A stretch of DNA of 64,000 nt. It comes from Acidimicrobiales bacterium (GTDB lineage Bacteria; Actinomycetota; Acidimicrobiia; Acidimicrobiales; MedAcidi-G1). Shown here in pieces: positions 3,325-5,751 of this stretch. Numbering within the stretch: the first letter of the stretch is position 1; each line of letters starts with the position of its first letter. The stretch lies in assembly GCA_022452145.1 (NCBI GenBank), contig JAKURY010000004.1:62001-126000 (forward strand). The letters run 5' to 3'. The position numbers were made by a program, and so were the translations under genes. Below the pieces are notes generated by a model that saw nothing but the letters and a program-made list of their open reading frames with translations, was not told where the DNA came from and ran no database searches.

Positions 3325-3855
3325 CTAGCGAAAGCTCTCGCGGAGCTGGTTGAGGCGGCGTCGGACGCTGCCGTCGATGATGTCGTCACCGATCTCGGTG
3401 ACCACGCCGCCCAGCACGGACGGATCGATGACCACCCTGACCTCGACCTCGCGACCGGTCCGGGTGTTGATTGCGGCGGCCAGGCGCTCGCGCTGGTCGG
3501 CGGTCAGGTCGACCGCGCTCCGCACCGTCGCAACCGCCTTGTTCCGTGAGGCCGCACTGCGCTCCAGCATGGCGTCCACGATGGCGGGCAGCTCGGCGGC
3601 CCGACCGGCACCGACCACCATCGAGACCAGCGCCGTGGTGACGGCAGACGCCCTGGCACCCAGCAGGTCCTCGACGACCTGGAGGCGACGCGCCATCGGC
3701 AGGGCCCGGTCGGCCAGGGTGGAACCCAGGTCGTCGTCGGACCGGAGGGCCTGGGCGAAACCGAACAGCTCGTCCTCGACCACGGAGAGGTCACCCTCCG
3801 CCGCAGCGACGGCGAACAGTGCCTCGGCATAGCCGGCCACCCTGGGATCAGCCAT
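3325..3855 (-). CDS. atpH: F1 ATP synthase subunit delta
   Basis: Peripheral-stalk subunit that joins F1 to the b subunits (equivalent to mitochondrial OSCP). The 176-residue length is typical, and the N-terminus (ADPRVAGYAEALFAVA) and C-terminus (IGDDIIDGSVRRRLNQLR) match the family pattern. Its ATG at 3855 lies inside the 3' end of atpF, an 8-nt overlap that implies translational coupling of the two stalk subunits. In many other actinobacteria b and delta are fused or duplicated; here they are separate genes. Confidence 0.95.
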   Translation of the reverse strand: MADPRVAGYAEALFAVAAAEGDLSVVEDELFGFAQALRSDDDLGSTLADRALPMARRLQVVEDLLGARASAVTTALVSMVVGAGRAAELPAIVDAMLERSAASRNKAVATVRSAVDLTADQRERLAAAINTRTGREVEVRVVIDPSVLGGVVTEIGDDIIDGSVRRRLNQLRESFR

Positions 3856-4573
3856 CGGTGCCTGCCACCTCGTCGATGTAGGCGTCTATGAGCCGGCCCT
3901 GCACCTCGGCATCCAGGCTGGCGTGGACCACGCGTTCGGCGGCACCGAGGGCGATCCCGGCAACCTCGGCACGGAGGTCGGCGATGGCCTGGGCTCGCTC
4001 CGACTCGAGGCCGGCGGCGGCACGCTCGCGCATCTCGGAGATGTCGGTCTCGGCGCGGTCCGCCAGGTCACCCTTGAGCTGGTCGGCAGCCACGCGGGCC
4101 TCGTCGATCAGCCGGGAGGCCTCGGTCTTGGCATCGGCCAGCCGGGCCTCGTAGTCCGACTGGACCGACTGGGCATCCACCCTGGCCTGCTCGGCGGCGT
4201 CCAGGTCGCTCCGGATCTTCTCGGCGCGGGCGTCCATGGCGCCCCTCACGGCCGGGAAGCCCTTCTTGACCATCAGCACGAAGAGGATCAGGAAGGCGGA
4301 GCCTCCCCAGATGATCTCGTTCGTCTCGGGCAGGATCGGGCTGGGAGCCTCGATGCACTTCTTCTCGAAGTGGTCTCCGATCGAGGCATCCACGTGCAGC
4401 TCGTGCAGGACCTCCTCGAGGTCGCCGTGACTCTCCTCGATCAGTTCTCCGAGCTTCTCGGCGATGCAGGAGCCGACGCTCTCTCCCGAGGCGGATGCCG
4501 GGGCGGCAAAGACCAGGAGCGCCAGGAGGGCGAGCAGCGGGGCCACCAGCAGGCGGTTCCGTCGGTTTGTCAT
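3848..4573 (-). CDS. atpF: F0 ATP synthase subunit b with exported N-terminal extension
   Basis: Membrane-anchored peripheral-stalk subunit. At 241 residues it is much longer than the usual ~160-185. Residues 1-29 look like a cleavable signal peptide (basic MTNRRNR, Leu/Ala-rich core, ASA just before Gly30). About 57 residues follow that would be extracytoplasmic, with Cys36 and Cys73. The normal b-type transmembrane helix comes next (about 87-102, IIWGGSAFLILFVL), then the long Ala/Glu/Arg-rich coiled coil that contacts delta. The C-terminal part and its place between atpE and atpH make the assignment firm. The meaning of the exported extension is inferred only: it may be a disulfide-linked cap on the outer face of F0. 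Confidence 0.93.
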   Translation of the reverse strand: MTNRRNRLLVAPLLALLALLVFAAPASASGESVGSCIAEKLGELIEESHGDLEEVLHELHVDASIGDHFEKKCIEAPSPILPETNEIIWGGSAFLILFVLMVKKGFPAVRGAMDARAEKIRSDLDAAEQARVDAQSVQSDYEARLADAKTEASRLIDEARVAADQLKGDLADRAETDISEMRERAAAGLESERAQAIADLRAEVAGIALGAAERVVHASLDAEVQGRLIDAYIDEVAGTDG

Positions 4574-4605: not shown

Positions 4606-4974
<369 letters not shown>

Positions 4975-5751
4975 CTAGTGGGCCGGGTGGAGGGAGCCGC
5001 CGATGTACACGGCGGTGAGGATCGTGAAGATGAAGGCCTGCAGCACCGAGACCAGGATCTCGAAGCCGGTCATCATGGTGAGCATTGCGAACGGTGCCAC
5101 CGAGCCGACCTTGCCGATGATGCCACTGGTGAACATGGTGTGGCTGAGGATTGCGAACGTGACCAGCAGGAGGTGTCCGGCGACCATGTTGGCCCAGAGC
5201 CGGATGGCCAGGGAGAAGGGCCGCACGATGAACGTCGACACCAACTCGATCGGCGTCACGATCAGGTACAGGGCCACCGGCACGCCCGGTGGGAAGAGCG
5301 AGTTCTTGAGGTAGCCGCCGAGGCCCTGGGACCTTATGCCCACGTAGTTGTAGATGACCCATACGACCAGGGCGAGGGTGATCGGGATGGCCATGCGGCT
5401 GTTGGCCGGGAACTGGATGCCCGGGACGACCTCGAAGATGTTCGAGAAGAGGATGAAGAAGAACATCGTGGTCAGGAAGGGCATGAACTTCTTGCCCTCC
5501 TCGCCGATGGTCTCCATGACCACGGACTCCTCGATGAAGGTCACGCCCGCCTCGGCGACGTGCTGGACCCCGGCCGGCACCAGCGAGCCGGTCTTCCGGC
5601 CGGCCACCAGGAAGATGGCCGCTGTGATCGCCACGGCGGCCAGGTAGACCAGCACCGTCTTGTTGATGGCGTAGAAGGTCCCGTGGAACGCGATCTCAGG
5701 CCATTCGAAGAGGTGGCTGATGGGCGGGAACTCGAGTGCGAGCACGTTCAC
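4975..5751 (-). CDS. atpB: F0 ATP synthase subunit a
   Basis: Proton-channel subunit of F0, 258 residues, with five to six hydrophobic helices. The essential arginine is Arg184 in the motif IRLWANMVAGHLL, and the conserved FFILFSNIFEVVPG segment is present. The GTG start at 5751 overlaps the stop of the atpI-like gene (GTGA), showing translational coupling. It is separated from atpE by 111 nt in which no gene or clear terminator is visible. Confidence 0.96.
   Translation of the reverse strand: MNVLALEFPPISHLFEWPEIAFHGTFYAINKTVLVYLAAVAITAAIFLVAGRKTGSLVPAGVQHVAEAGVTFIEESVVMETIGEEGKKFMPFLTTMFFFILFSNIFEVVPGIQFPANSRMAIPITLALVVWVIYNYVGIRSQGLGGYLKNSLFPPGVPVALYLIVTPIELVSTFIVRPFSLAIRLWANMVAGHLLLVTFAILSHTMFTSGIIGKVGSVAPFAMLTMMTGFEILVSVLQAFIFTILTAVYIGGSLHPAH

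Follow-up and report, generated by a model that had tools for sequence, protein, structure and literature searches.

A predicted signal peptide and a paired-cysteine N-terminal segment on the ATP synthase b subunit of many Acidimicrobiia

The F-type ATP synthase b subunit encoded in the window, the whole 64,000-nucleotide stretch of Acidimicrobiales DNA that was analysed, starts with an N-terminal extension that is conserved among close relatives and contains two cysteines. The extension reads as a signal peptide followed by a small segment that probably lies outside the membrane and is closed by a disulfide, ahead of a membrane helix and a stalk. Judged by sequence, the feature recurs over much of the class and is not peculiar to the window's genome, which goes beyond the original prediction. 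Few machines have been studied as thoroughly as ATP synthase, and to our knowledge its bacterial form is regarded as almost bare on the outer face. An outer-face disulfide domain, if real, would give the stator a new site of stabilisation or regulation, and Sec, signal peptidase and oxidative folding would become requirements of b assembly.

Results

The atpF gene is located on the minus strand at 3848..4573 and encodes 241 residues in an open frame from an ATG. A b subunit with an N-terminal extension had been predicted here without a strand, and both gene and extension are confirmed. Residues 92-215 of the product match PF00430 (1.3e-26, 93.7 bits at a cut-off of 28), so that about 90 residues precede the match; TIGR01144 also matches above its cut-off. 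This PF00430 match is the only b candidate in the window's genome. By Pfam assignment of the neighbours, which are on the same strand, atpF sits between atpE (subunit c, 4606..4863, PF00137, 3.6e-17) upstream and atpH (delta subunit, 3325..3855, PF00213, 7.1e-42) downstream, the latter sharing 8 bases with the end of atpF. The atpB gene (subunit a, 4975..5751, PF00119, 4.8e-61) lies further upstream. The products of atpE and atpB are both free of cysteine.

Residues 1-28 (4490..4573, minus strand) form the predicted signal peptide. It was judged by a rule of thumb, namely a positive N-region, a hydrophobic core and small residues at -3 and -1. The arginine-rich start (RRNR) is followed by 17 mostly hydrophobic residues and by A26-S-A28, the end reading ASA|SG with the predicted cut at A28|S29. 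Within 30 family sequences alanine occupies -1 in all (30/30) and -3 in 29, while position -2 is variable. The window's genome also encodes signal peptidase I. The predicted exported segment, residues 29-86 (4316..4489, minus strand), is acidic, contains histidine and is kept in relatives. Its length of about 58 residues agrees with the roughly 57 extracytoplasmic residues originally claimed. It carries C36 (4466..4468) and C73 (4355..4357), the sole cysteines of the protein; a proline-rich linker then leads to the membrane helix (approximately residues 87-102, 4268..4315) and to the cytoplasmic stalk helix (residues 103-241, 3851..4267), all on the minus strand. The exported segment has no Pfam or NCBIfam match, and a PDB sequence search returned 0 matches at E values up to 10.

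AlphaFold modelling of the mature window protein gave a confident, continuous stalk helix (mature residues 56-211), which starts with the membrane helix and has pLDDT values mostly above 90 in the stalk. The N-terminal part was modelled as three short helices, the first containing C36 and the third C73, at a pLDDT of about 48-62. The model of the compact form from Aquihabitans (L091), likewise of low confidence, places the first cysteine in a helix and, past a turn, the second in another, short one. Over both models the pLDDT of the exported part is about 47-62, so its fold is provisional, and a close approach of the two cysteines or a contact with subunit a is putative. A Foldseek search with the whole low-confidence window model found nothing at E 0.001.

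Several observations argue that translation begins at the upstream ATG. The next methionine after M1 is M101, which is already inside the membrane helix, and the only in-frame alternative starts ahead of the helix are GTG codons at V10 and V61. In the window's genome the atpE stop and this ATG are 32 bases apart, and an ATG is kept at the same place in relatives, which speaks against the concern that the upstream start is unused. The comparison of AtpF across Acidimicrobiia, suggested with the original prediction, revealed that relatives keep the extension. In ten pairs among five atpF genes of equal length, dN/dS was 0.03-0.29 for residues 29-81 of the exported part, 0.11-0.39 for membrane helix plus stalk and 0.17-0.99 for the signal peptide, which in 9 of the 10 pairs was under the weakest constraint of the three. 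These sequence ratios indicate that the exported part is under purifying selection and constrained like the rest of b, the signal peptide less so. A start-site error or a chance extension of the frame was therefore rejected, given the conserved extension, the dN/dS values, the ATG kept after atpE and the two-or-none pattern of cysteines described below. We found no point in its support and assign it next to no probability. The near-invariant alanines around a free -2 position, and a relaxed signal ahead of a constrained segment, likewise lend indirect support to the predicted signal peptide and export.

A protein search with the window's b found the protein in 42 of 48 genomes of its family. 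It also returned 33 loci in named records, mostly marine Acidimicrobiales MAGs; some Actinomycetota MAGs and Aquihabitans sp. G128, whose complete genome carries the compact form, were also among them. PF00430 was detected in 268 of 296 genomes in a class search and in 83 of 83 in an order search. The b N-termini were read from both searches and from fetched stretches, only part of the class matches being fetched, and all frames were counted by one mechanical start/signal rule. A total of 185 class frames was read in this way, a set that leans towards the window's family and includes the window's genome twice. A signal together with exactly two mature cysteines was seen in 76 of them, neither feature in 103, and two cysteines lacking a recognised signal in 5; 1 frame was partial. 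Every signal-bearing class frame carries the pair (76/76), and none of the 184 readable frames has one or three exported cysteines. The five exceptions are two f73 rows, whose long arginine-rich start seems to have been missed by the signal rule, two f2 rows (L163, L164) and L188. These five apart, signal and pair come and go together as far as the frames can be read. In an evenly drawn sample of the order, the pair was present in 30 of 83 genomes, absent in 52 and cut by a contig end in 1. Among 50 b frames from other classes of the phylum (the best-scoring 30 loci and 20 stretches, one in fact of the class, most picked for long open frames), 6 have a signal, of which 5 have no cysteine and 1 has a single one, and 44 have neither signal nor cysteine.

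The distribution of the pair follows the tree of subunit a, as estimated from a quick tree of 153 sequences. The trait needs 9 changes on this tree, compared to a mean of about 51 after shuffling, and the starred branches alone force 7 changes.

The second cysteine is part of a C-x8-P-x3-E motif ahead of the membrane helix. It stands at this fixed place, always nine residues ahead of the invariant proline, in 79 of 79 pair rows with the window's genome counted once, and the glutamate is invariant as well. The position of the first cysteine varies: between 12 and 62 residues separate it from the second in the signal-bearing rows (n = 76), the loop averages 33 residues in the window's family, and compact members such as EECIHILEGGGTAEEC (L028) occur. 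Past the linker, the 80 two-cysteine b rows counted contain no further cysteine. Subunit c has none at 77 of 77 pair loci, which rules out a cysteine partner there, and of 75 full-length a subunits at pair loci, 47 are free of cysteine. Where f2 genomes have tandem b genes, the pair occurs in only one of the two (L163, L164), which favours a bond within one chain. Together with the lack of any other cysteine in b or c, these tandem cases make an intrachain bond the simplest reading. Alternatively, the bonds might run between both b chains of a stalk, or from b to a partner protein. A single b gene is found in 28 of the 30 pair genomes of the order sample, so that symmetric bonds in a homodimer would be possible. 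Yet each chain always has two cysteines though one would do, and the L163 and L164 cases speak against a bond between chains as well; we consider it improbable. Tandem b genes as such were seen in 22 of the 83 order genomes (e.g. L131, L137, L138, L139, L144, L146, L151), 20 of these 22 lacking the pair. Another locus (L093, 2444-3798) contains two consecutive b genes that both have a signal-like start and a cysteine pair.

The proposed C36-C73 disulfide gains indirect support from the two-or-none cysteines, from the missing cysteine partner in b or c and from an even-cysteine bias of exported proteins. In 755 kb of the window's genome, exported proteins with even and odd cysteine numbers stood at 15:2, compared to 169:206 for cytosolic proteins (Fisher p 0.0004). 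The 15:2 count is based on 21 exported proteins called by rule and having no further helix, 4 of them cysteine-free, with the lipid-bearing cysteine subtracted and likely cytosolic matches dropped; a few of the 21 may be miscalled. A first, cruder count had given 12 even, 14 odd and 3 without cysteine (n = 29, many lipoprotein cysteines and likely cytosolic proteins included), and the stricter rule, along with more sequence, was adopted only after this 12:14 result was known. With that history, the sequences suggest a preference for even cysteine numbers among this genome's exported proteins.

A putative oxidation route was visible in part of the genomes. DsbB was found in 14 of 31 family genomes including the window's, where a DsbB gene is followed by a gene for a thioredoxin-like protein that has a CPHC site and an N-terminal membrane anchor (L272, 8421-9660, on contig C29). 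VKOR and Thioredoxin_4 were each found in 0 of the 31 family genomes. VKOR was therefore rejected as the oxidase of the window's family. The accessible part of one paper describes actinobacteria such as mycobacteria as using VKOR in place of DsbB (PMC12421883). The 30 pair genomes of the order, at the threshold used, comprise 11 with DsbB alone, 5 with both, 2 with VKOR alone and 12 with neither; oxidative machinery is thus seen for part of the carriers only. Across the order the pair showed no clean correlation with VKOR or DsbB.

Discussion

From these data we infer the following arrangement. The b subunit would be made with a Sec signal peptide, which signal peptidase I cuts off. The new N-terminal part (S29 to about E86) would lie outside the membrane, followed by a single membrane helix and the cytoplasmic stalk in an N-out, C-in orientation. 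A bond between both exported cysteines of one chain would tie a small acidic helical domain to the conserved proline linker just outside the membrane helix. In F-type enzymes b meets a at the outer face of Fo, and the domain may serve as an outer-face clamp, holding the b N-terminus against subunit a, or a second b, at the outer Fo surface. We propose that the stator would thereby be stiffened or stabilised. The sequences directly show the gene, the extension with its conservation, the two-or-none cysteines and the fixed second cysteine, from which cleavage, the bond, the placement outside and the clamp are inferred. The anatomy of signal peptide, two-cysteine segment, helix and stalk we regard as highly probable. 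The clamp role, bracing the stator against Fo, is put forward as a tentative idea with somewhat less than an even chance, and for the explanation as a whole, anatomy and clamp on the outer end of the peripheral stalk together, the chances appear balanced. Counted against this explanation are the low confidence of the modelled exported part, the 12 pair genomes with neither DsbB nor VKOR, the first cysteine count of 12:14, a loop whose 12-62 residues sit oddly with a precise clamp surface, and L163/L164, where the pair comes with no recognised signal peptide.

A bolder reading is suggested by the composition of the segment. On average 30-32% of the loop between the cysteines is Asp or Glu, both in the window's family and in other carriers, compared to 13.2% in the proteome; histidine makes up 13.5% of the loop in the window's family, compared to 2.3% in the proteome. 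The median net charge of the exported segment is -11 in the family and -9 in other carriers, while the short tails of pair-less b subunits have -1. In a test that was chosen post hoc, the histidine and acid content of the window's segment was reached by 13 of 18,636 stretches of 53 residues from predicted proteins. The domain might thus gather or buffer protons or cations next to the outer half-channel between a and c, with the disulfide merely positioning it. Proton gathering would be of advantage in sea water, with its pH of about 8, and by its motif the window's subunit c is presumably of the proton type. More broadly, a clade-wide, disulfide-locked acidic cap by the proton entry half-channel, also rich in histidine in the marine family, could tune the enzyme from outside by gathering protons or by sensing pH or redox state. 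However, the histidine enrichment is confined to the window's family (1.7% in other carriers), the 21 exported proteins of the genome are somewhat acidic anyway (14.9% Asp/Glu), and the placement beside the channel is putative. We consider both the antenna and the wider cap unlikely.

It is also conceivable that the signal only directs insertion of b and that the exported segment is a tolerated passenger with no function at Fo. The highly variable loop length and the signal peptides on b of other classes that come with no cysteine pair (6 of 50 frames) would fit such a passenger; the purifying selection on the segment and the pair in every signal-bearing class frame would not, and this seems rather unlikely. 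The signal might even remain uncut and form a first membrane helix, making b a hairpin with its N-terminus inside, as in mitochondrial b, which is a hairpin of this orientation. The hydrophobic stretch at about residues 8-24 could just span the membrane. However, the AxA motif is kept in nearly all family members with its middle position free, and the signal is the least constrained segment in nearly all pairs, unlike a packed helix; a two-helix b is very unlikely. On the sequences compared, the outer-face clamp is favoured, and the uncut two-helix form and the passenger are less likely.

The window's b has the membrane helix, stalk and operon place of F-type b subunits in common, but the models for these (PF00430, TIGR01144) leave its first approximately 90 residues uncovered. 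The solved b subunits found have shorter N-terminal tails: residue 85 of the window protein corresponds to residue 4 in 6oqr, which we take to be the E. coli enzyme, residue 87 to residue 11 in Bacillus PS3 (6n2y), and residue 94 to residue 38 in 7jg5, presumably from Mycolicibacterium. None of these three structures covers the exported part. The six signal-bearing b subunits from other classes (L217, L225, L232, L235, L238, L239) have a signal-like N-terminus like the window's b, but their exported tails are only 12-19 residues long and have no cysteine pair. Signal-bearing b subunits also occur in Rhodobacterales and Campylobacterota. Chloroplast b (CF0-I) is processed at its N-terminus after a short presequence and has no exported disulfide domain; the likeness to the window's b is the N-terminal cut, here predicted. 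In chloroplast ATP synthase, the gamma subunit has a redox-regulated, reversible disulfide on the rotor that blocks hydrolysis, as described in the accessible part of PMC9244403. The putative disulfide of the window's b would instead lie outside the membrane, on the stator, and is more likely structural. The portion of a comparative survey available to us (PMC4154653) describes insertions and extensions in several ATP synthase subunits, none of which is a two-cysteine b domain. We found no description of a two-cysteine exported domain on b in the literature searched or in family models. While signal-bearing b subunits are already known elsewhere, the two-cysteine exported domain is the new part. 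An extra secreted mini-domain with no counterpart in standard b suggests an enzyme that is braced or tuned from outside.

Within the one class, the exported domain would have been gained or lost several times. The b subunit of L188 (f28) starts with a long N-terminal extension, perhaps of independent origin, whose two cysteines sit at other positions; no signal was recognised there. In L112 and 19 more order loci, subunit a is set apart by a branch length of 3.02, and the b N-termini are mostly of the SNFLVPNATF type. By their sequences, these twenty members perhaps represent a second, differently inherited ATP synthase inside one order.
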